Part shown: in pieces, positions 1,936-53,621 of the stretch
How the letters are laid out: each line of letters begins with the position of its first letter
How positions within the stretch are numbered: position 1 is the stretch's first letter
NCBI GenBank assembly: GCA_947564735.1
Contig: CANOEC010000002.1
Span: 180,738 to 244,737 of the forward strand
Direction: 5' to 3'
From: an uncultured Lachnospiraceae bacterium
GTDB taxonomy: Bacteria; Bacillota; Clostridia; Lachnospirales; Lachnospiraceae
DNA length: 64,000 bases
Program-made: the position numbers and the translations under genes
Notes under the pieces: model-generated
The model's database searches: none
Seen by the model: the letters and a program-made list of their open reading frames with translations, nothing else
What the model was told of the DNA's origin: nothing

Positions 1936-3168
1936 CTACCCCTTTACTACGCCAACGGTCTTCAGCTTCCTTAGCGGCGTCACAAGATCTGCCTGCTGCA
2001 TCATCACTTCATCAATATCCTTATAAGCGAATCTGCACTCCTCGGCAACATCGTTTTTCTTCCGTTTGCCAAGAATCACGCCCTGCTCCTTCAAATCCAC
2101 CATGACCTGCTCCGTTGTAAATGCATTCATCGCCCCGGTCCGGGAATAAGCTCTGCCTGCGCCATGTGATGAAGTACAGAAAGATTCCGCGTTTCCTTTT
2201 CCCTCCACCACATAGCTGTAAGACCCCATAGCTCCCGGTATCACGGCACGCTCTCCAAGTCTTGCCCGCGTTGCACCCTTCCGGTGTACCCAGACATTGG
2301 CGCCGTAATGATTTTCCAAAGCCGCATAATTATGATGGCAGTTAATGCGGTCGATAAAGGAAACCCTCCGTCCTGCATATTTTTCTATCTGCTGCCCTAC
2401 AATAGCGCAGACTGCTTCCATCATATGCTCCCTGTTTTCAAAAGCATAATCCAGCGCAAGGTTCATCCAGTTCAAATACTGCTGTCCTTCCTTGGTATCC
2501 ACTGGCAGAAAAGCCAGTCTGTACTCATCCGGTACCTCGCTGCACCATGTCCGGTTCAGTTCCCTTGCCTTGTTATGAAAATAGTCGCAGATTTCTTTTC
2601 CCAAATGTCTGCTGCCCGAATGAATCATAATGCACAGATAGCCTTCCTCATCCTCCTGCAATTCAATGAAGTGATTGCCTCCTCCCAGCGTTCCCACCTG
2701 AAAATATCCTTCCTCAATCAGATGCGTAAGTTCCGGATTTGTCTCGTACCGCTCCATGTTCCCAAACGCCCTGTCAAGCACCGCCGACGCCTGCTTCTGC
2801 CTGTGTTTCTCGAATCCTACGGGAACGGTGCGCATAATATTGCCTATCATGGACTGCATGATGGAAGCCGTTCCCACCATCACATCCTTAATTTCCTCAT
2901 ATTTGATATCTGTCGCCATAAATATCATCCCGCACCCGATGTCCACGCCGACCGCATTCGGAATAATGACATCTTTCGTGGCAATCACACCGCCGATTGG
3001 CATCCCTTTCCCCGTATGGGTGTCCGGCATCAGGCACACCCATTTATGAAGAAAGGGAAGATTTGCTAAATGATAAGCCTGCTCCACACAGGACTCCTCC
3101 ATCCGGTCGAGCCCGGACAACCATGTCTTTACCGGAAATTTTGTTTTCTCATCATATATTACGAACAT
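1936..3168 (-). CDS. rtcB: RtcB-type RNA ligase
   Basis: RtcB joins RNA ends with 2',3'-cyclic phosphate (or 3'-phosphate) to 5'-OH using GTP and Mn2+. The 410-aa protein has all key family motifs: PDTHTGKG at 48-55, GVDIGCGM with the metal-binding Cys at 74-81, GGGNHFIEL at 162-170, HSGSRHLG at 183-190, HHNY at 278-281, and SHGAGR at 334-339 whose His335 corresponds to the guanylylated histidine. Length is normal and the frame intact. ATG at 3168 follows GGTGGAAGAAAG and overlaps the end of the upstream Ro-like gene by 10 nt, so the two are translationally coupled. With the two tRNA-like RNAs upstream this forms an RNA-repair operon. No archease or RtcA gene is seen nearby. Confidence 0.95.
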   Translation of the reverse strand: MFVIYDEKTKFPVKTWLSGLDRMEESCVEQAYHLANLPFLHKWVCLMPDTHTGKGMPIGGVIATKDVIIPNAVGVDIGCGMIFMATDIKYEEIKDVMVGTASIMQSMIGNIMRTVPVGFEKHRQKQASAVLDRAFGNMERYETNPELTHLIEEGYFQVGTLGGGNHFIELQEDEEGYLCIMIHSGSRHLGKEICDYFHNKARELNRTWCSEVPDEYRLAFLPVDTKEGQQYLNWMNLALDYAFENREHMMEAVCAIVGQQIEKYAGRRVSFIDRINCHHNYAALENHYGANVWVHRKGATRARLGERAVIPGAMGSYSYVVEGKGNAESFCTSSHGAGRAYSRTGAMNAFTTEQVMVDLKEQGVILGKRKKNDVAEECRFAYKDIDEVMMQQADLVTPLRKLKTVGVVKG

Positions 3169-4673
3169 AATCTTTCTTCCACCTTTCTGTATCGAGCGCC
3201 ATCCAGTATCTTCTTTAAGCATTGAAACGGGTCTAACTCATTGGAGAGAACCATCTGACAGACTTGGACTGAGAAACCGCTCACCAGTCCCACGCCCAGC
3301 TCATTCTCCCGCACCGGAATCACATTCGTCCTGCTGTTCACGTTCCAGAACACCAGCTTCGGCATCCGGTAGCCGTATCCCGCAAAGCGTCTCCTGATTG
3401 TTCCAAAGAGAGTCTGCATACCGCATCCCCTTACCGCCGCATCAAATTCCATGTCGGATATCACAAGAATCGTGCCGGGAAGTTCCTCCTGCCGCAGACG
3501 GTTTCTGACCGCTGTCTGCAAAATCAAATCAAAAGTCGCCTCTACATTCGTATTGCTGCAATCATTATGCGAAAATGCCAGTTCCAGCTTCTGCCGCAGC
3601 GTTTGACACTTCGACAAATCCACATACTTCGGCGTTGCGGAAAAAGTGATGTAACGATTCTTATATACGCCGCTCATGCGCTCTGCAAAATAAATCCCCA
3701 GCGCATTGGAAACATGTAACGCTGTAATATTGCCGTCCCCCACCGGACACAGCATACTGCCGGAACCGTCCACCACGCAGAGCACACTGCCTGCCTCCGC
3801 TACCGTATCGGGAAGTTTCTTCCACAACGCTTCCAGCGCCGCATCCTCCGCAGAAGTTTCCATCCGCCAGCCGTTTCGTACTATATACTGCGCCACAATC
3901 TCATGGGGCATAAGCACTCCCGCATGTATTACCGCCTGATTTTTCTGCACCTGCTGCAGATATTCCTTCCGGCGTGCCCCATCTCTGTGAAGAAACGCCT
4001 TCCGGTACAAAAGATTGGCACGCGATGCAACATGTGTATAGTCAATTTCATCCCATCTGTTGCTGCTCATGTACACTTCCGTCACATCAGTATACGCTCT
4101 TAAGGAAGATAACATTTGTCTGTACTCCTTCGCAGTCATCCCCATAAACTGCTGCAGCTTCGCCGCATTGCTTCGGGACTCCTTGGAGGAAGTATTGTTG
4201 CCAGACATCCACTTCGCACACAGAGAAACCTTTCCCTCATTCTCTCTATTCTCCATATCTTCCCGAAGCTGCTTTGCCAGTACCGCGAGTGCAGTCTTCT
4301 CAAGCGGCGTATCAATCAGGCACAGCAAATCATCGTATCTGCCGTACTCCGCCATAAGCTCCACCAGACCGCCCATTATCCCCGGCTCACACTCTGCCAG
4401 ATAACGGACAATTATGCGAAAGGAACGCCTCTCACCCATGCCGCCCCTTACGTCGCGCAAAAAGAACAGCCACTTTAACGCGAGGATTCTATCCTCATAA
4501 AATGCCGGAATAAATCTTCTGACAATCATCTCCTCGGACATACTCCTAAGCGATGCCGCCGCAAAATTCAAATCCACCAAAGCCTTGCCCGTGGTTTCGT
4601 ATCCAGCCGCACCGTTTTCGGTCATCTTCTTATTATCATTTATCGTCTTATGTAATTTTTCCATAAAATTCAT
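3159..4673 (-). CDS. Ro-like RNA-binding protein candidate (DUF2828/TROVE type with vWA domain)
   Basis: This 504-aa protein joins an N-terminal helical repeat region, with the marker FLRDVRGGMGERR at 71-83, to a C-terminal von Willebrand A domain with the MIDAS motif VDGSGSM at 301-307. That layout matches DUF2828 proteins, which resemble the TROVE-vWA Ro60/Rsr proteins that bind misfolded RNA and Y RNAs; I assign the family from memory. ATG at 4673 has AGGAGGAAACGCG before it. The gene is cytoplasmic (no signal or membrane segment), starts 68 nt after the second tRNA-like RNA and overlaps rtcB. Inference: it holds or presents the tRNA-like RNAs or broken RNAs for RtcB. Confidence 0.75.
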   Translation of the reverse strand: MNFMEKLHKTINDNKKMTENGAAGYETTGKALVDLNFAAASLRSMSEEMIVRRFIPAFYEDRILALKWLFFLRDVRGGMGERRSFRIIVRYLAECEPGIMGGLVELMAEYGRYDDLLCLIDTPLEKTALAVLAKQLREDMENRENEGKVSLCAKWMSGNNTSSKESRSNAAKLQQFMGMTAKEYRQMLSSLRAYTDVTEVYMSSNRWDEIDYTHVASRANLLYRKAFLHRDGARRKEYLQQVQKNQAVIHAGVLMPHEIVAQYIVRNGWRMETSAEDAALEALWKKLPDTVAEAGSVLCVVDGSGSMLCPVGDGNITALHVSNALGIYFAERMSGVYKNRYITFSATPKYVDLSKCQTLRQKLELAFSHNDCSNTNVEATFDLILQTAVRNRLRQEELPGTILVISDMEFDAAVRGCGMQTLFGTIRRRFAGYGYRMPKLVFWNVNSRTNVIPVRENELGVGLVSGFSVQVCQMVLSNELDPFQCLKKILDGARYRKVEERLCS

Positions 4674-4740
4674 CGCGTTTCCTCCTCTTATGATTCCATC
4701 GTCCACCCTTTTTACAGAATTGTCACTGTCATTTGCAAAG

Positions 4741-4828
4741 CCTTACCGGGGCAGGATTCGAACCTGCATATGCCAATATGTTGATTGCTGTGAAAGTCTT
4801 TGCCAAGACTTGTTATTCCACGGTAAGG
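4741..4828 (-). ncRNA. tRNA-like non-coding RNA 2 (candidate Y-RNA-like tRNA mimic)
   Basis: Read on the minus strand this 88-nt segment closes with a perfect 7-bp stem, CCTTACC with GGTAAGG. It has a canonical T-arm, GCAGG-TTCGAAT-CCTGC, three nt before the closing strand. In place of D- and anticodon arms it carries an element shared with the neighbouring RNA: GGAATAACAAG, then a 7-bp hairpin AAGTCTT-GGCA-AAGACTT, then a CAGCAA tail, followed by a small CATAT-TGGC-ATATG hairpin. No CCA end is encoded. It lacks a D-arm, so it cannot be a normal tRNA. It lies 68 nt upstream of the Ro-like gene on the same strand. Confidence 0.7.
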
Positions 4829-4857
4829 CTGATATAGACAGAGAAAGTTTCCGAAAG

Positions 4858-4977
4858 CCGCCACCCTAGACGGGACTCGAACCCGCGACAACGCACTGAA
4901 AAGGTGTTTTGTTTGCTGTAAAAGTCTTTGTCAAGACTTGTAATTCCGCGCTCTACCATCTGAGCTACTTACGGCGG
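4858..4977 (-). ncRNA. tRNA-like non-coding RNA 1 with 40-nt insertion in the anticodon arm
   Basis: On the minus strand the RNA has a closing stem CCGCCGT/GTGGCGG (five Watson-Crick pairs and two G-U), a canonical D-arm GCTC-AGATGGTA-GAGC and a canonical T-arm GCGGG-TTCGAGT-CCCGT. A 40-nt insertion (4907-4946) splits the 5' strand of the anticodon stem. Without it the arm reads CGCAC-CTTTTCA-GTGCG, five perfect pairs around a 7-nt loop. The insertion contains the same AAGTCTT-GACA-AAGACTT hairpin found in RNA 2. A five-by-five internal loop (AAGTA/CTAGG) separates the closing stem from the D- and T-arms, unlike real tRNAs, and no CCA is encoded. A hairpin at 4976-4994 touches its 5' end. Confidence 0.7.
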
Positions 4978-5245
4978 AGACTTTTGTCGTCTCCCTCTGT
5001 CTGGATATAGGATACAGCAACCCGCCTGCAGAATCATTTCAAAAAAGTTGCGAAGTTGTGATTGTTGCCAGAGTAATACCGCAGGTTAAGATATTTTTCG
5101 GTATAAATTGTTAATTCTTCATTATACTCTCATGAAATGTGACGAATTACATTGATTACCCTCATAAAATGTGATAATCCTGTTAATTTTCCCTATTTTT
5201 TTGTGATGATTGTGTTGTAAAACACGCCGGAAAAGGATATAGAAT
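4976..5245. promoter_or_regulatory. Upstream region of the RNA-repair operon: leader hairpin and direct repeats
   Basis: A hairpin GGAGAC-loop-GTCTCC (4976-4994) lies at the 5' edge of the first tRNA-like RNA and shares two bases with its closing stem, so the two folds may compete. Further out, two 15-bp direct repeats of the form CTCAT(A/G)AAATGTGA(C/T) lie at 5129-5143 and 5161-5175, 32 bp apart. I see no convincing sigma-A or sigma-54 promoter on the minus strand, so the transcription start is open. No gene fits in this gap. Confidence 0.4.
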
Positions 5246-5251
5246 CAGATT

Positions 5252-5929
5252 TTGCTCGATTACGAAGAAGATATCAGAAAGTATGCATCGGGTCTTGAGC
5301 AGACAAAGATTGTCAGCATTTATCGCAATATTCCGGCGCAGCTGGCAAAAGAAAACAAAAAATTCCAGTTTAATAAATTGGGAAAAAACGCCCGTTCCAG
5401 AGAATATACCGGATGTATAGAATGGCTGATTGACTCCGGCATTATCAACGCTTGTTACTGCCTTAACTATCCGGAACTCCCCTTGAAGGGAAATTATGAT
5501 GCTTCAAAGTTCAAACTATACTATTCCGATACCGGGCTCTTAATTGCCACTTTAGATGAAGAAGCGCAGGAAGACCTCAGAGCCAATAAGAATCTTGGTA
5601 TTTATAAAGGTGCGCTTTACGAAAATTTTGTCGCCGAAGCCTTTACCAAACAAGGGCACGGACTCTACTATTTCAGCAAAGAAAACTCAACACTGGAAGA
5701 AGATTTCTTTGTGCGCTCTCAAAGCGAACTCATTCCCGTAGAAGTCAAAGCGAACAAAAACAGTTCCAAGTCATTAACCGCGCTGATCAAGAATGAAAAT
5801 TACAGCGATATCCATCACGGAATCAAACTTGATGCCGGAAATATCGGCTATGCCAATCAAATATATACCTTCCCGTATTTTTGTGCCTTTTTGATAAAGC
5901 GGTATTTGAGGATACAGTCCGAGATGTAA
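5252..5929 (+). pseudogene. C-terminal half of an AAA ATPase with DUF4143 domain
   Basis: The 225-aa product matches the C-terminal part of the common AAA_14/DUF4143 ATPases: a winged-helix-like region, the marker YYSDTGLLIATL near residues 90-101, then LGIYKGALYENFVAEAF and the nuclease-fold-like stretch SELIPVEVKANKN. Full proteins have about 400-450 residues with a Walker A ATPase domain in front. Here that whole half is missing, a stop lies in frame just upstream, and the only start is TTG without a ribosome site. I judge it a truncated remnant left by a deletion upstream of the RNA-repair operon. Confidence 0.75.
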
Positions 5930-6123: not shown

Positions 6124-6909
6124 TTACCATTCCTTTATATTCGGTCTCGGATTTCTCCACCATTCCTGATAGTCTTTTGAATATCTTGTTAAAACTACTG
6201 CGATGTCTTTAGGCGGCTCGTAAGTTGTAATTTCAACAAATTTATCTACAAATCTATCTGCATCTTGTATACTTTGAGAACGCTCAAGTTCTCGCCCTAA
6301 TCTTACTAATTCTGCTGTTTTTTCAGATACAAATTCGACCTGCTTTTCTAATCGCCTATTACAATCAAATAGTATTTCATTTTCTTGTAATATCATTCGA
6401 TATACACTGTAAATAATTTCTACTATCGTTTGCATTTTCATATACCCATCAATTTCACATGATTTTAAAAAATAATGATAATTAAGCCAAAAATCTGAAT
6501 AAAATGATAAAAACTTTTCCTCTTTTTCCTTTTTCTGGAATACTGGAATCTGAGGTATGATACCTTCAATTTCCACATCACTGCAAAATAGTATTCTGGC
6601 TTTTGTAAAACCATTGCGGGCTGGCTCACTTCCTCTCTCTGCCAAATCCTTAAGATATTCCTTTGTCATGTATTTCACATCAAAGTAACCGCCTTCATAA
6701 GTACATAGTCCATCTATTGTTTCTGTGGTTGTGTTATTTTTCTCTTTTTCTTTATATTCTTCCTCTGAAACAATAACCACGCAGTCCAAATCAGAATCTG
6801 CTCTCTCAATTTCCTTCGCTACAGACCCTGTAAGTATTAAAGCTATGGCTCCCTGCTTTCTAAAATACTCCTTCATATTTTCAATAGATTCTTCGTGATG
6901 CTTAAGCAT
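6124..6909 (-). CDS. Nucleotidyltransferase-fold protein
   Basis: The N-terminal part has the polymerase-beta-type nucleotidyltransferase motif LTGSVAKEIERADSDLD (GSx-A then DxD, about residues 28-43), followed by an all-helical C-terminal domain. This is the architecture of aminoglycoside nucleotidyltransferases and of uncharacterised cytoplasmic relatives; the substrate is unknown. The start at 6909 is chosen because GAGGGAG lies 9 nt before it; an ATG at 6930 has no ribosome site. It follows the next gene upstream by a short gap, so the two probably form an operon. Confidence 0.7.
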   Translation of the reverse strand: MLKHHEESIENMKEYFRKQGAIALILTGSVAKEIERADSDLDCVVIVSEEEYKEKEKNNTTTETIDGLCTYEGGYFDVKYMTKEYLKDLAERGSEPARNGFTKARILFCSDVEIEGIIPQIPVFQKKEKEEKFLSFYSDFWLNYHYFLKSCEIDGYMKMQTIVEIIYSVYRMILQENEILFDCNRRLEKQVEFVSEKTAELVRLGRELERSQSIQDADRFVDKFVEITTYEPPKDIAVVLTRYSKDYQEWWRNPRPNIKEW

Positions 6910-6936
6910 TATTACATTCTCCCTCTCCATTTTGAT

Positions 6937-7515
6937 TCATTTAAATGTAACTTTTAATAGACAAAAATCAAACCCTTGTCGTATGCTGTGTATAATCTCC
7001 ACATCAACAGGGCTTTCAAAAACCATCTCAAATAACTTTTTGTTGTAGCCCGCTGTACAATGACACCATGTTAATGAATTGGTATTCTTTGCTTTTTCTA
7101 ACATAGGACATTCACATGCAAACATCTTTGTATATAATTGATTGTCCTTTATGTACCAGCAAGCACCGTTCTCATTTAGGGCATTTACAAAGCTATGCAA
7201 ATTTTTGTTATGGGATATATACAAATCTTTTAAATATTTTGCTGTATCCTCCAGTCTGCCATTTTCATTGCAGTAGCATTTTTCTCGAATATCCCTAACC
7301 GTATTTTCGTCAAATCTGCTTTCCAATAATGCGGATAATTTATCCACCCATTCAGCGCGTTCCTCTGGTGCGGAATTTAAAGGCAAGAACAGCTCCGACA
7401 TAATCTTATCAGCTTCTTCTTTTGATACAGTCGTTTCTAAGCTATGCTTCAAGCGCATCATTTCATCTAATTCCAATATAGCCGACACTTGCTTTGGCAT
7501 AGAAAACTTTTCCAT
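6937..7515 (-). CDS. Cysteine-rich protein, ATC-hydrolase/V4R-like (DUF6144 type)
   Basis: This 192-aa soluble protein ends in a pattern typical of the L-2-amino-thiazoline-4-carboxylate hydrolase-like/V4R fold: CECPML, then WCHCTAGYNKKLFEMVF, then PVDVEIIHSIRQGFDFC. An extra pair, CYCNENGRLED, lies in the middle. Clustered Cys residues suggest metal or small-molecule binding, but no enzyme activity can be claimed. It is transcribed just ahead of the nucleotidyltransferase gene. A short remnant of a similar C-terminus is found at 28215-28415. Confidence 0.55.
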   Translation of the reverse strand: MEKFSMPKQVSAILELDEMMRLKHSLETTVSKEEADKIMSELFLPLNSAPEERAEWVDKLSALLESRFDENTVRDIREKCYCNENGRLEDTAKYLKDLYISHNKNLHSFVNALNENGACWYIKDNQLYTKMFACECPMLEKAKNTNSLTWCHCTAGYNKKLFEMVFESPVDVEIIHSIRQGFDFCLLKVTFK

Positions 7516-7959: not shown

Positions 7960-9213
7960 ATGTCAGAATTTAACGAACTAATCAAATCATTTGCCAAAAG
8001 CCGGGAATATGTCCGCGACTTCTTCGTATACGGCTTCAAGACCCGCGACGAGTTTGCCGGCTGGAGCAGCCGTACCTATGACAATGAACGGCGCCGGCTG
8101 GAAAGCTGGCTCTCCGGCTATGTCAGGCAGGAGCACACCGGCAAAGGCAAAAATATCTATCTTTCCATCGACAGCAACCTGCTTGATACCAACCCGCTGT
8201 ACCGGGTATGGAAGACCAAGAGTTTTACGGACAACGATATCATGCTGCATTTCTATATCTTGGACTTTCTGATACAGTCCCCGGAAAAAACCGCTGAGGA
8301 GATTACCGACGGCATCCTCACCAGATACGGCGTCGTCTTTGATTCCCAGATGGTTCGTCGGAAGTGCAACCAATATGCCAAAGAAGGCATTTTACATAAA
8401 AAAAGAAACGGCAGGGAAATCTTGTACTGCCTTGCTCCGCCTGCAAAAGAACTGTTTGCTGCCCATCCCGGTCTTAGAAATGCGGTAAAGCTCTACCAGT
8501 TGTCTTCCCCCTTGGGTATCATTGGGAATACGATTATGGACACGGCTTCTTTTCACAACGACCTGTTCCGCATCAAGCACAATTTCTTCGTCCATACGCT
8601 GGAAGACGAAATCCTGCTTCCGCTCCTTGATGCAATACATACGCAAAGAAGCGTCGCCCTGACAATCAAGAGCACGAAATCAGACAGACTGCTTACCACC
8701 GAGGGCGTTCCCTTGAAAATTTTTATCAGCACCCGCACCGGAAGACGCTACTTATGCCTATATCTCCCGAAGACAAAACGCTTCACGAATATCCGCATGG
8801 ATGCAGTCAAGAAAGTGTCGGTAACAGAACCGTTTCCCGAATACAAAAGCATTGCTGATAAGCTGGAAAAAAATAAAGCTTCCGCATGGGGTGTCTCCTT
8901 CCAGAACGACAACCATCAGCATTCCGAGCACGTCAGACTGACCCTGCACATCAATGAACTGTCGGAAAGCCATATCATCAAGCGCCTGAATCGGGAGGGC
9001 AAGGGCGGAACCATAAAGCGCGTCGCGCCGGATACGTTTACTTATGAGATTACTGTGTTCGACGCCAACGAAATGCTCCCTTGGATTCGCACCTTCACCG
9101 GGCGCATTCTTTCCATTGACTCGGACTGCCCGCAGCTTGCGTCTCGCTTTCAAAGAGACCTTCTGACCATGTACCATATGTATTTTGAGGAAAAGACAGA
9201 AACCAGCATGTGA
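7960..9213 (+). CDS. WYL-domain transcriptional regulator
   Basis: The 417-aa protein has an N-terminal helical part, a winged-helix segment (about residues 95-145, ILDFLIQSPEKTAEEITDGI) and a C-terminal WYL region with RTGRRYLCLYLPKTKRFTNI, followed by a WCX-like extension. WYL proteins sense ligands, often nucleic acids, and control transcription in the cytoplasm. ATG follows AAAAAGGAGC. The next gene, 64 bp downstream, is another WYL protein, so the two may act together. No target operon lies next to them. Confidence 0.82.
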   Translation: MSEFNELIKSFAKSREYVRDFFVYGFKTRDEFAGWSSRTYDNERRRLESWLSGYVRQEHTGKGKNIYLSIDSNLLDTNPLYRVWKTKSFTDNDIMLHFYILDFLIQSPEKTAEEITDGILTRYGVVFDSQMVRRKCNQYAKEGILHKKRNGREILYCLAPPAKELFAAHPGLRNAVKLYQLSSPLGIIGNTIMDTASFHNDLFRIKHNFFVHTLEDEILLPLLDAIHTQRSVALTIKSTKSDRLLTTEGVPLKIFISTRTGRRYLCLYLPKTKRFTNIRMDAVKKVSVTEPFPEYKSIADKLEKNKASAWGVSFQNDNHQHSEHVRLTLHINELSESHIIKRLNREGKGGTIKRVAPDTFTYEITVFDANEMLPWIRTFTGRILSIDSDCPQLASRFQRDLLTMYHMYFEEKTETSM

Positions 9214-9277
9214 GCTGCCGGCACATATCATCCCCATGCCGCCAGCACAAGCCATTACGATACAGAGGATAACAGAA

Positions 9278-10258
9278 ATGAGTGAATTATTTTCAGAAAT
9301 CTACAATTGTTACTTTCAAGTAATCAAATCATTAATTGAACAGAAAAGCACCATATCGGAACGTGAACTGAACTATCGCATCCAGAGTTTCTGTTTTGAA
9401 GAAAGCATTCTCTACCTGTTGCCAAAGCTTGGCGAGAAGGGATGGGGCTTTTATGAGAAAAAAGACGGCGTCCTGCATTCCCGATTGTCTAAGGATTTCT
9501 ATGTCCCTCTCACCGACTTGCAGAAATCCTATCTGAAAGCGATTCTGTCAGATGAAAAAATCGGTCTGTTTCTCGATGAAGCAAAAATCGCACAGATTAA
9601 CGCTTCCCTTGCGGACGTGGAACCGCTCTTTTCGTCTGAGGATTTCTATTATTATGACCGTTTTGCCGATAAGGACGACTATGCCTCGCCGGAGTATAAG
9701 GAGCATTTTCAAACGATTCTGTATGCAATCCAAAACCGATGCTATGTAGATATTATCTACGAATCACGCCATCACCGTCGGATGCATCACAAATATCTTC
9801 CGTGCCGTCTGGAATACTCCATCAAAAACGACTGTTTCAGACTGCTGGCTGTAGCATCCCGCGCACAGGAGAGAAAACGGGTCATCACACTCAATCTGCA
9901 GCGCATCGTTGCTGTGACTGCAACCGACATCGTCGTTCACAAGCTCCCGGACATAAGCCGGCTGTACAAACGCTCCTGCTACAAGGAACCTGTACGCGTT
10001 CTTATCAAAAACCGCCGCAATGCACTGGAACGGGCGATGCTGCAGTTTGCCAATTATGAAAAAAGCACCCGCAGGCTGAATGAAGATACCTACGAGTGCC
10101 TCATCTACTATAATAAGGAAACAGAAACGGAGCTTCTGATTGAAATACTCTCCTTCGGACCGATGCTCAAGGTCGTGGGGAACGAAACCTTCTTACGCTT
10201 AATCAAAGAACGGCTTATTGCTCAGCATCACCGTACTTTTCCTTCAGCATCCGGTTAA
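9278..10258 (+). CDS. WYL-domain protein
   Basis: The 326-aa protein carries a central WYL domain: CYVDIIYESRHHRRMHHKYL and the following NDCFRLLAVASRA, ending in a WCX-like part with ILSFGPMLKVVGNETF. The N-terminus (MSELFSEIYNCYFQV) is helical, as in partner WYL proteins without a clear HTH. The start at 9278 has ACAGAGGATAACAGAA before it; an earlier in-frame ATG at 9185 lies inside the previous gene. Its last 44 bp overlap the end of the convergent DUF3021 gene. Confidence 0.8.
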   Translation: MSELFSEIYNCYFQVIKSLIEQKSTISERELNYRIQSFCFEESILYLLPKLGEKGWGFYEKKDGVLHSRLSKDFYVPLTDLQKSYLKAILSDEKIGLFLDEAKIAQINASLADVEPLFSSEDFYYYDRFADKDDYASPEYKEHFQTILYAIQNRCYVDIIYESRHHRRMHHKYLPCRLEYSIKNDCFRLLAVASRAQERKRVITLNLQRIVAVTATDIVVHKLPDISRLYKRSCYKEPVRVLIKNRRNALERAMLQFANYEKSTRRLNEDTYECLIYYNKETETELLIEILSFGPMLKVVGNETFLRLIKERLIAQHHRTFPSASG

Positions 10259-29619: not shown

Positions 29620-29948
29620 CCTATTACGATGATGTTGGGGGCAAAATGAACTTTTACAAAATACTGCTGACAGATTGCACAAATTGCTCACGCAGTTGTT
29701 TTGTGAAGGCGATTGTGATTTTCTTCCTATTCCGCTCAGTATCCAGCATTTTGCGGACACGGATGTCCGCAAAAGCCCGAAGCGAGCCCGGATGGCTCAT
29801 TGAGGGCGGATGCGTCTGTCAGTCAATATCTTGTCGGAATATGTTAGAAAATCCAATCGACGAAACCAACACAAGAGAGCAATTTGTGCAATCTGCCATC
29901 TCAATTTACCAAAAGTTCATTTTGACCCCAGCATCATTACGATTCGGG
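29620..29948. repeat. Inverted-repeat element (MITE-like)
   Basis: The left arm, from about 29620 to 29705, and the right arm, from about 29861 to 29948, are imperfect inverted copies. Both contain GATTGCACAAATTGCTC and CAAAATGAACTTTT in opposite orientation. The 155-bp centre holds a perfect hairpin TTGCGGACA-CGGA-TGTCCGCAA (29751-29772). Neither arm encodes a whole protein, although both can be read as containing REQFVQS. No flanking target duplication was identified with certainty. Confidence 0.55.
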
Positions 29949-53248: not shown

Positions 53249-53320
53249 AGGCAAACAAGAAACAAATAGCTCTATGCTAGACCAAGCGAAAACCCAGAGA
53301 GTTGCAGCTCTCTGGGTTTT
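53249..53320 (+). ncRNA. Putative antitoxin RNA of an Fst-like type I toxin-antitoxin locus
   Basis: A short transcript from the promoter at 53213 would end at the hairpin at 53289-53320. Its 5' part, GAAACAAATAGCTCTATGC, nearly repeats the plus-strand sequence GAAACAAATAACTCCATTAC at 53431-53450, which is the complement of the toxin start region. So this RNA could pair with the toxin mRNA over its ribosome site. Converging RNAs with direct repeats and a shared terminator are the hallmark of par/Fst-type loci. Confidence 0.5.
53289..53320. terminator. Shared terminator of the toxin-antitoxin pair
   Basis: AAAACCCAGAGAG and CTCTCTGGGTTTT pair perfectly over 13 bp around a 6-nt loop, with T-rich sequence on the plus side and a TTTT run on the minus side, so it can end both converging transcripts. 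Confidence 0.8.
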
Positions 53321-53375
53321 CTTTTGCGCTTTTGAGTTGCACTAAACTAGGCTAATTACCGCTTGTCGTTGTCGT

Positions 53376-53447
53376 CTAACCATTTGCAGACGAGGTGGCA
53401 AACACGCCTGCCATGACAGCAACCAAAAACGAAACAAATAACTCCAT
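53376..53447 (-). CDS. Small hydrophobic toxin-like peptide (Fst-like), possibly frameshifted
   Basis: ATG at 53447, after AAGGGGG and a 7-nt gap, gives MELFVSFLVAVMAGVFATSS and three more residues. The hydrophobic helix is typical of small type I membrane toxins of Firmicutes. In the next frame the sequence continues CHLVCKWLDDNDKR to 53356, the charged tail expected in the family, so one base seems lost near 53410. An extended -10 box TGATATAAT lies at 53502-53494 on the minus strand. Confidence 0.5.
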   Translation of the reverse strand: MELFVSFLVAVMAGVFATSSANG

Positions 53448-53621
53448 TACTAGACCCCCTTCCTGTTACCAGTATCGGGGCGGTAACGAGCCTATTATAT
53501 CACTGTTACCTCAATTTGAATACTACATTTTTTGACAGATTTCTTATCATAGATTAGCAAAACACCACTTCTTGGCACCGTTTTGGCACCGCATTACACT
53601 TTTTCACTGTTGCAAAATTTC

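Follow-up and report, generated by a model that had tools for sequence, protein, structure and literature searches.

Small RNAs that display tRNA parts on a shared stem-ACAGCAA handle beside a Ro-like vWA gene of bacteria and phages, possible decoys for tRNA-attacking enzymes

Chen et al. reportedly described in 2014 tRNA-like Y RNAs near Ro60 in more than 250 bacterial and phage species, and some of the loci considered here may be among them. The YrlA RNA has been raised as a possible competitive inhibitor of an anticodon nuclease in a passage of PMC7790460. Phage tRNAs insensitive to anticodon nucleases are described in an excerpt of PMC10264068, which gives VapC, PrrC, colicin D and colicin E5 as their proposed opponents. 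Here a stretch of 64,000 nucleotides (nt) from an uncultured Lachnospiraceae bacterium (assembly GCA_947564735.1, contig CANOEC010000002.1, positions 180,738 to 244,737; "the window") was analyzed together with homologous loci of bacteria and phages. The sequence-only reading of the window had proposed an RNA-repair operon, in which two tRNA-shaped RNAs, a Ro-like vWA protein and the RNA ligase RtcB form a divergent counterpart of the Salmonella operon rsr-yrlBA-rtcBA. We give an even chance to a different reading, that the locus encodes a ribonucleoprotein decoy, in which RNAs made of tRNA parts sit on a Ro-fold protein and stand against tRNA-attacking enzymes.

The two RNAs, the vWA gene and rtcB were all present on one strand when their coordinates were re-checked:

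4977..4858, minus strand: RNA-A, 120 nt, with D arm, split anticodon arm (UUU), T arm and closing stem
4966..4950, minus strand: D arm of RNA-A
4907..4946, minus strand: 40-nt insert that splits RNA-A at tRNA positions 28/29 and contains the shared hairpin with ACAGCAA
4922..4939, minus strand: shared hairpin of RNA-A, AAGTCTT GACA AAGACTT
4913..4919, minus strand: ACAGCAA box of RNA-A
4897..4903, minus strand: anticodon loop of RNA-A, CUUUUCA, anticodon UUU, with C37 in place of a purine
4886..4870, minus strand: T arm of RNA-A
4830..4739, minus strand: RNA-B, 92 nt, with closing stem, shared hairpin and T arm
4794..4811, minus strand: shared hairpin of RNA-B
4785..4791, minus strand: ACAGCAA box of RNA-B
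4767..4751, minus strand: T arm of RNA-B
4673..3159, minus strand: vWA gene, 504 aa, DUF2828/DUF7788, phrog_850, predicted Ro60 fold
start 3168 (first ATG 3222), stop 1936, minus strand: rtcB, RtcB RNA ligase, an optional neighbour

The transcription order on the minus strand is RNA-A, RNA-B, vWA gene and rtcB. The 3' end of RNA-B lies 65 nt from the ATG of the vWA gene, and the start of rtcB overlaps the end of the vWA gene. The tRNA-like character of the RNAs was borne out, with T arms and closing stems in both and with a D arm and an anticodon arm in RNA-A; ARAGORN reported no tRNA in the window. Two features had gone unnoticed in the sequence-only reading, the hairpin-ACAGCAA insert common to both RNAs and the splitting of the anticodon arm of RNA-A by this insert. 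The insert, CAAGTCTTG-N-CAAAGACTTTYACAGCAA, was searched as a 28-base pattern with up to three mismatches, and RNA-A and RNA-B were its only two places in the 4.5 Mb genome.

Stretches with a homologue of the vWA protein numbered at least 572 in the genome collection and at least 590 in the viral collection, and the best 80 of each were used. Within 1.5 kb upstream of the vWA gene in these 160 loci, ACAGCAA occurred 331 times on the same strand and 14 times on the opposite strand (125 versus 7 in the genome loci, 206 versus 7 in the viral loci). At least one ACAGCAA was present in 57 of the 69 genome loci and 62 of the 78 viral loci with at least 1 kb upstream. Homologous loci without the RNAs were looked for as a refuting case of the sequence-only reading, and 28 of the 147 have no exact ACAGCAA in 1.5 kb. 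In the Bacteroidales locus L142, two elements with box variants (TTCAGCAA) and stems AAGAGG/CCTCTTG were seen by eye upstream of the vWA gene. At least one of the 28 loci is explained by a box variant (L142), and because of these variants the exact-ACAGCAA counts are too low. A scan for stem-CAGCAA elements within 2.5 kb yielded 275 distinct elements on the gene's strand, in 129 of 191 loci, versus 8 on the opposite strand, the latter not reduced for identity; some genomes stand in two of the sets behind the 191 loci. The stem pairs adjoining the box vary, with four to six pair types at each of five pairs. A laxer pattern, CTTGN{1,4}AAGRN{3,7}ACAGCAA, matched 94 of 299 family genomes, apparently mostly by chance, and was not usable. 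These results indicate that a handle made of a short stem and ACAGCAA is linked in place and strand to the vWA gene.

The RNAs that carry this handle take three forms. In the insert form, the hairpin lies within a tRNA body between the D arm and the anticodon arm (window RNA-A; L033, L034, L035, L151), and such RNAs can exceed the Rfam tRNA threshold as overlong tRNAs (L035, L151). In the open form, the RNA starts with AAGACNNN-ACAGCAA, finishes with NNNGTCTTG, is closed by the stem and has a hairpin in between. The loops of such hairpins read CUGUCAC (Asp GUC) in L035, CUUCCAA (Gly UCC) in L036, CUUUCAA (Glu UUC) in L037, CUCAAAA (Leu CAA) in L053 and CUUCUAA (Arg UCU) in mycobacteriophage Aegeus. 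In the permuted form, a complete cloverleaf lies inside the open RNA and begins with the anticodon arm and the T arm, followed by the 3' acceptor strand, a short loop, the 5' acceptor strand and the D arm. Circular permutation was met in 3 of 37 open elements with a T-arm motif (twice in L160, once in L177); six matched, and the three without a D arm were not counted. Five more permuted RNAs were found by eye in named phages (L253, L255, L283, L289 and L290, with L255 and L289 nearly identical). The nearly identical RNAs of E. coli phages ECML-1 and heid have a 7-pair acceptor closed by the loop AGAT, and the acceptor loops are ATT and CGGTAC in Enterococcus phages EfV12-phi1 and EF1 and CCATAAA in mycobacteriophage Krypton555. 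The unconstrained minimum-energy fold of the EfV12-phi1 RNA (L290) is the permuted cloverleaf. The window RNAs themselves are not permuted.

For the counts of displayed anticodon arms, 121 of 209 open and 33 of 66 hairpin forms were used, and elements with a score below 19 or without a CTTG/CATG-type end were left out. Hairpins with loops of 7 nt and four or more pairs were present in 64 of the 121 open elements, versus 16.6 in shuffles, and 30 of the 64 loops had Y32-U33-R37, versus 29 of 331 shuffled loops. Such a hairpin (at least three pairs) was also found in 23 of the 33 insert forms (shuffles 12.9), with Y32-U33-R37 in 12 of 23 loops versus 23 of 257. Between them, the 42 strict loops cover 20 anticodons, which correspond to 14 amino acids; Asp GUC (9) and Asn GUU (5) are the commonest. 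Under a stricter rule, the excess over shuffles was strongest at loop length 7 (44 versus a mean of 11.7, shuffle maximum 19), smaller at length 5 (27 versus 12.8, maximum 21), and slight or absent at other lengths. The excess at length 7 was seen in each set (28 versus 7.3 in genome loci, 16 versus 4.6 in viral loci). U33 is near-invariant in tRNAs. It was present in 34 of the 64 mimic loops versus 478 of 496 ordinary tRNAs from overlapping, mostly viral loci. Of the 30 loops without U33, 15 keep Y32 and R37, twice the share in shuffled loops (247 of 1047, p 0.002); examples are CAGUUAA (L134, L137), CAGGAAA (L212), UAGAGGA (L160) and CCGGUAA (phage heid). Lost U33 was not adopted as a decoy signature, this excess being modest.

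RNA-A shows how an anticodon is displayed on a tRNA body. Positions 26-28 (GCG) stand 5' of the insert, and positions 29-31 (CAC), the loop CUUUUCA and positions 39-44 (GUGCGU) stand 3' of it; when the two sides are rejoined, a normal five-pair anticodon arm with anticodon UUU results. The loop has U33, and C37 replaces the purine. Against the Rfam tRNA model RNA-A scored 24.7 bits, below the threshold of 29. Relatives were defined by their place and by their D and T arms; 13 sources were aligned and L070 was left out. In the resulting 12 sequences (the window and 11 relatives), 98.1% of pair cells were paired. Changes in the stems came with compensating ones; double changes occurred in 6 of 22 pairs (5 of 500 shuffles reached six), the doubly changed cells numbered 15 (reached by 0 of 500 shuffles), and pair 28:42, which flanks the insert, appears as GC, CG and UA. 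The closing stems of the relatives differ in sequence and are often irregular, with a longest unbroken helix of 3-11 pairs. The loops read CUUUUAA in L063-L065 and L072, CUGAUAA in L066, CUGUCAC in L067 and L071, and CUUCCAA in L073, and were not legible in L068, L069, L070 and L135. Thus the anticodon at one and the same place is UUU, GAU, GUC or UCC, while the D and T arms are kept. The genome of the window has both ordinary tRNA-Lys UUU and CUU (ARAGORN, 29 genes in 23 stretches around 29 cmsearch matches), which rules out RNA-A as a missing essential tRNA. A self-splicing intron was also rejected, as the insert has only 40 nt and one hairpin and no Rfam intron family was found in window 4600-5200.

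The exact position of the RNA-A insert, with sides that sum to a normal five-pair stem, would suit interrupted or permuted pre-tRNAs. Here, an endonuclease would cut out the hairpin-ACAGCAA as an intron or splice signal and RtcB, which is a tRNA-splicing ligase, or another ligase would join position 28 to 29 to give a working tRNA, as with the bulge-helix-bulge introns and permuted tRNA genes of archaea and algae. The permuted acceptors, of 5-8 pairs closed by 3-7 nt, would also allow processing, since the intervening sequences of known permuted genes measure 1-74 bp according to a part of PMC3978253. However, no tRNA can come from hairpins that are anticodon arms only, an anticodon is absent from RNA-B and U33 from many loops, and the relatives of RNA-A keep their D and T arms while the anticodon differs. 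Most loci also lack RtcB, and no downstream gene common to 24 loci was found by eye. We consider this explanation distinctly unlikely; the permuted and insert RNAs are probably not processed to tRNAs. A role of the RNAs in decoding is unlikely as well, because the tRNA body may be absent, whole or permuted, the anticodons of relatives differ, U33 is often lost and ordinary tRNA-Lys is present.

In RNA-B, which is closed by a stem of ten pairs, a T arm is present and a D-loop-like GG stretch can be read by eye; the D arm and the anticodon arm are absent. It appears to mimic the acceptor, the T arm and perhaps the elbow of a tRNA. RNA-B folds better than its shuffles (z -4.3/-3.9; 1 and 0 of 200 as good). 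Double changes were found in 13 of 24 pairs among ten sequences (13 sources, with L066, L068 and L073 left out), and none of 500 shuffles had as many. It scored 16.7 bits against the Rfam tRNA model, again below threshold. A covariance model of RNA-B gave nine matches in 7 of the 299 family genomes. Two of the nine (window and G273) were expected to match, since the model was built with them. All 7 genomes are among the 31 with a vWA gene, and the distance from match to gene, always on its upstream side, ranges from 63 to about 320 nt; at the same threshold there was no match in the other 24. Six matches to the model flank the vWA gene on both sides in L135:3390-7962, and therefore such RNAs can also stand 3' of the gene.

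The protein beside these RNAs has the predicted fold of Ro60, a helical-repeat ring with a vWA domain. Its AlphaFold2 model reached a mean pLDDT of 90.9 with an alignment of 53 sequences (the window and 52 picked by hand from 153 usable homologues). The ten best Foldseek matches in the PDB were all Ro60/TROVE (E values 3e-8 to 2e-6, TM scores by query length 0.48-0.59), and Ro60 of Thermus phage phiLo was one of them. The Ro-like nature claimed by the sequence-only reading is thus supported by the predicted fold, while the sequence link is marginal, a profile against PDB TROVE chains giving an E value of 0.54, at chance level; L042 (in-frame stop), L062 (partial match) and L037 (N run near the start) were left out of the profile alignment. 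Pfam matched DUF7788 (6e-39) and DUF2828 (2e-34) only and no TROVE family. The protein belongs to phrog_850, "RNA-binding protein" (6e-125), and its nearest predicted viral structures are those of a pithovirus, Acinetobacter phage ME3 and others, several of them named DUF2828 or DUF7788.

Such a fold would also fit a Y-RNA-like tether or gate. The RNAs would sit on the Ro ring and their tRNA-like part would recruit or regulate a nuclease such as PNPase, as with Deinococcus Rsr and Y RNA, for decay or quality control of structured RNA. By anatomy RNA-B appears built like YrlA as depicted in a section of PMC8394870, with a putative protein-binding stem and a D/T/acceptor-like module, and a part of PMC12282133 proposes a tether for a Listeria phage with a homologous protein. 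A tether needs one constant effector module, whereas the displayed anticodon varies between elements and between relatives of RNA-A. Rfam, whose library we take to include a bacterial Y-RNA model, gave no Y-RNA match either in window 4600-5200 at E values up to 5 (two tRNA matches and one KCNQ1OT1_1) or in 7 loci at the gathering threshold (63 matches, all tRNA). On balance the tether is unlikely, though not strongly so.

Homologues of the vWA protein were found in 31 of the 299 family genomes and in 682 of 50,697 phage records, with hosts that include Escherichia, Mycobacterium, Salmonella, Vibrio, Listeria, Staphylococcus, Campylobacter and Enterococcus. In mycobacteriophages the homologue is annotated as "Ro-like RNA binding protein"; no function test of phage genes annotated with this name, as DUF2828 or as "hypothetical" was found in the literature searched. 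Among 15 phage stretches inspected (5 to 17 kb), eight have several annotated tRNA genes, three have one and four have none. A scan of fourteen phage stretches gave 25 elements on the gene's strand, spread over 11 of the stretches; some of the 25 lie inside genes and are chance. In Listeria phage VEfB7, three elements were found by eye and repeat search, one of them above the score.

We return to the decoy and its possible working. The Ro-fold vWA protein would hold the small RNAs by their common handle, and each RNA would display one part of a tRNA: a bare anticodon arm with a seven-base loop, an anticodon arm on a tRNA body (with the insert at 28/29 or permuted), or an acceptor/T arm, perhaps with the elbow. 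The displayed parts would compete with the tRNAs of the cell, and so might protect them, for tRNA-attacking enzymes, above all anticodon nucleases, in phage-host and inter-bacterial conflict. Anticodon nucleases are pointed to because anticodon arms are displayed, in phages many of them with tRNA clusters. RtcB, where present, would reseal cut decoys or tRNAs, and RNA-B may be a decoy for elbow- or acceptor-reading enzymes or a Y-RNA-like partner. A decoy of this kind would be expected to spell out anticodons, as the present family does. The two RNAs, which the sequence-only reading took for two odd scaffolds, are instead members of a family of mimics of tRNA parts and anticodon arms, and among the roles it offered for them (guide, decoy or ligase substrate) decoy is judged the best supported. 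The wider claim is somewhat more tentative, falling a little short of an even chance. It holds that tRNA-decoy particles are widespread in phages and bacteria, that their switchable anticodon-arm mimics, permuted forms included, soak up anticodon nucleases, and that RtcB is an optional resealer.

Several observations weigh against the decoy. RNA-B has no anticodon arm, and therefore anticodon nucleases cannot be the sole target. RNA-A alone folds little better than its shuffles (z -0.7/-1.9; 51 and 8 of 200 as good). By the criterion used, 57 of the 121 open elements have no anticodon-like hairpin, and chance would account for roughly a quarter of the 64 hairpins; the loci are related rather than independent, and the anticodon-arm counts ignore this kinship. 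Loss of U33 could equally mean decay. A CTTG- or CATG-like end was present in 214 of the 275 elements, but the element score rewards this end, so that its constancy is partly selected. The scan yielded no element in 62 of the 191 loci, and several very large phage contigs (L189, L192, L216) have no ACAGCAA in the 1.5 kb upstream. In the 14 phage stretches, three elements lay on the opposite strand versus the 25 on the gene's strand, and no gene-strand element was found by the scan in Vibrio phi-pp2, Klebsiella KP2025 and Stenotrophomonas DLP6. In KP2025, inspection by eye turned up two weak candidates that the scan had missed, ACAGCAA boxes right after the DUF2828 gene (L256:9530-9760) whose A/T-rich stems (GAAGAA..TTCTTC) are weak.

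The ligase was found to be an optional neighbour. The window ligase matches Pfam RtcB at 3.5e-114. In tblastn with the window RtcB, RtcB was found in 17 of 80 genome loci, 15 of which have it as the immediate downstream gene, in 5 of 30 family loci and in none of the 80 viral loci; at least 3 kb downstream was available in 61 of the 80 genome and 72 of the 80 viral loci. The Pfam model was run on 44 records of viruses and phages, fragments among them, and 3 had RtcB. At genome level, RtcB occurs in 88 of the 299 family genomes and in 18 of the 31 with the vWA gene (Fisher p 6e-4), and the 13 without it are among drafts of which some are incomplete. In Listeria phage VEfB7, the vWA gene is followed at 1.3 kb by RtcB and, farther downstream, by another RNA ligase. 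RtcB and the vWA gene are thus associated, yet the RNAs and the vWA protein occur without RtcB, and RtcB as a core component was rejected because it is absent from most loci. From the repair operon of the sequence-only reading, the Ro-like protein, the tRNA-like RNAs and the adjacent rtcB are retained, and the core place of RtcB is given up. A narrow repair platform, on which the RNAs would serve RtcB as guides or substrates on a Ro-like scaffold, draws on the adjoining rtcB of the window, of other genome loci and of VEfB7 and on the co-occurrence above expectation. The same counts, with RtcB missing from most loci and from 13 of the 31 genomes, make it very improbable.

In some loci, both bacterial and viral, the gene after the vWA gene encodes a cysteine-desulfurase-like class-V aminotransferase (L156:7629-8795 and L163:7637-8761 by Pfam; by eye in L088, L093 and L097). 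This hints that tRNA or the mimics may be thiolated. Further features were found around the RNAs of the window:

5032..5053, minus strand: TCGCAACTTTTTTGAAATGATT, candidate upstream box, promoter- or operator-like by eye; relatives carry it upstream too
7960-9213 and 9185-10258, plus strand: two overlapping WYL-type regulator genes (PADLOC WYL 3.7e-8 and 6e-10)

The WYL-type genes lie about 3 kb from the RNAs on the opposite strand. They had no Pfam match, and the call rests on PADLOC. They may be part of the system, and in L139 a WYL-type gene stands upstream, two genes before the vWA gene. These neighbours would suit a tripwire or damage sensor, in which cutting of the bait arms alters the particle and triggers a response through the WYL regulator, a conformational change of the vWA protein or RtcB, which is near in some loci. 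A precedent is the Salmonella operon, which is switched on by cut tRNAs via RtcR in the account given in part of PMC7790460. However, loops without U33 might be poor bait, and no regulator common to the phage copies was seen in the annotations inspected. The tripwire is thus quite improbable.

Between the RNA array and the WYL-type genes, a DUF4143 protein (5252-5929, plus strand) resembles the C-terminal half of PDC-S01-type proteins, with the N-terminal part missing. Two adjoining small genes lie at 6124-7515 (minus strand), and one encodes a protein of 268 aa whose N-terminus, GSVAKEIERADSDLD, is presumably nucleotidyltransferase-like. Elsewhere in the window, Rfam matched a TwoAYGGAY RNA (105.3 bits, 29701-29868, plus strand) and an SpF66 sRNA (42.5 bits, barely above the threshold of 42, 53276-53487, minus strand).

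If the wider claim is true, one branch of Ro-Y RNA particles and the Ro-like proteins of phages would gain a function, and RNAs that spell anticodons would tie these particles to the arms race over tRNA cleavage. It raises the direct question whether the displayed anticodon predicts the nuclease that is blocked. The permutation of tRNA genes, which the review PMC3978253 describes from algae and archaea, would be extended by permuted tRNA-like genes to bacteria and phages. Annotation would gain as well, since ARAGORN misses the window RNAs and insert forms can pass as overlong tRNAs.

Among the known systems close to the locus are the ribonucleoproteins of Ro60 (Rsr) and YrlA. The locus shares with them the predicted Ro60 fold, a candidate protein-binding stem with a tRNA-like module, and a gene beside the RNAs, and RNA-B appears closest to YrlA in build by its D/T/acceptor-like module, as given in a section of PMC8394870. 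In contrast, the window protein is DUF2828/DUF7788 and not TROVE, the handle is a short stem with ACAGCAA, many of the RNAs display varied anticodon arms, and some are permuted tRNAs. With the Salmonella operon rsr-yrlBA-rtcBA the locus shares a Ro-like gene, tRNA-like RNAs and rtcB together. It differs from that operon in its gene order of RNA-RNA-vWA-rtcB, in its optional RtcB, in its anticodon arms and nearby WYL-type genes, and in the lack of RtcA (PF01137) and RtcR (PF06956), neither of which was found in the window's own genome while both were detected in the E. coli control.

The order of T arm, 3' acceptor, short loop, 5' acceptor and D arm, and the inserts in the tRNA body, recall the permuted and intron-containing tRNA genes of algae and archaea described in part of PMC3978253. 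Unlike these, the present RNAs belong to phages and bacteria, end in a stem with ACAGCAA and often lack U33, and the insert of RNA-A and its relatives lies at 28/29. The insensitive phage tRNAs likewise stand in phage tRNA clusters, have altered anticodon loops and share the proposed opponents, but they are proposed as working tRNAs in the excerpt of PMC10264068, whereas the present RNAs are mimics on a shared handle, many of them without a tRNA body.

Published data are available for Listeria phage CKA15. In a part of PMC12282133, the homologous protein CKA15_055 is reported in purified phage particles with 57% sequence coverage; because of this, it may be delivered with the phage. The same part reports that CKA15_059 and CKA15_060 make up about 67% of phage transcripts at 40 min, and Y RNAs are considered there. 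CKA15_059-061 (L258 3889-4199) were found inside a ROOL-like RNA (RF03087, L258:3696-4247, minus strand, E value 2.4e-18, below gathering), and VEfB7 has another (L257:4454-5005, E value 1.2e-17, below gathering); both precede the vWA gene by about 1 kb. The three ACAGCAA elements of CKA15 lie between CKA15_055 and CKA15_056. The abundant transcripts, which lie inside the ROOL-like match and apart from the ACAGCAA elements, were therefore rejected as Y RNAs. They probably represent ROOL RNA and are not taken as evidence that the mimics are expressed. No published description of stem-ACAGCAA RNAs was found in the literature searched, which was judged mostly on titles and abstract openings.

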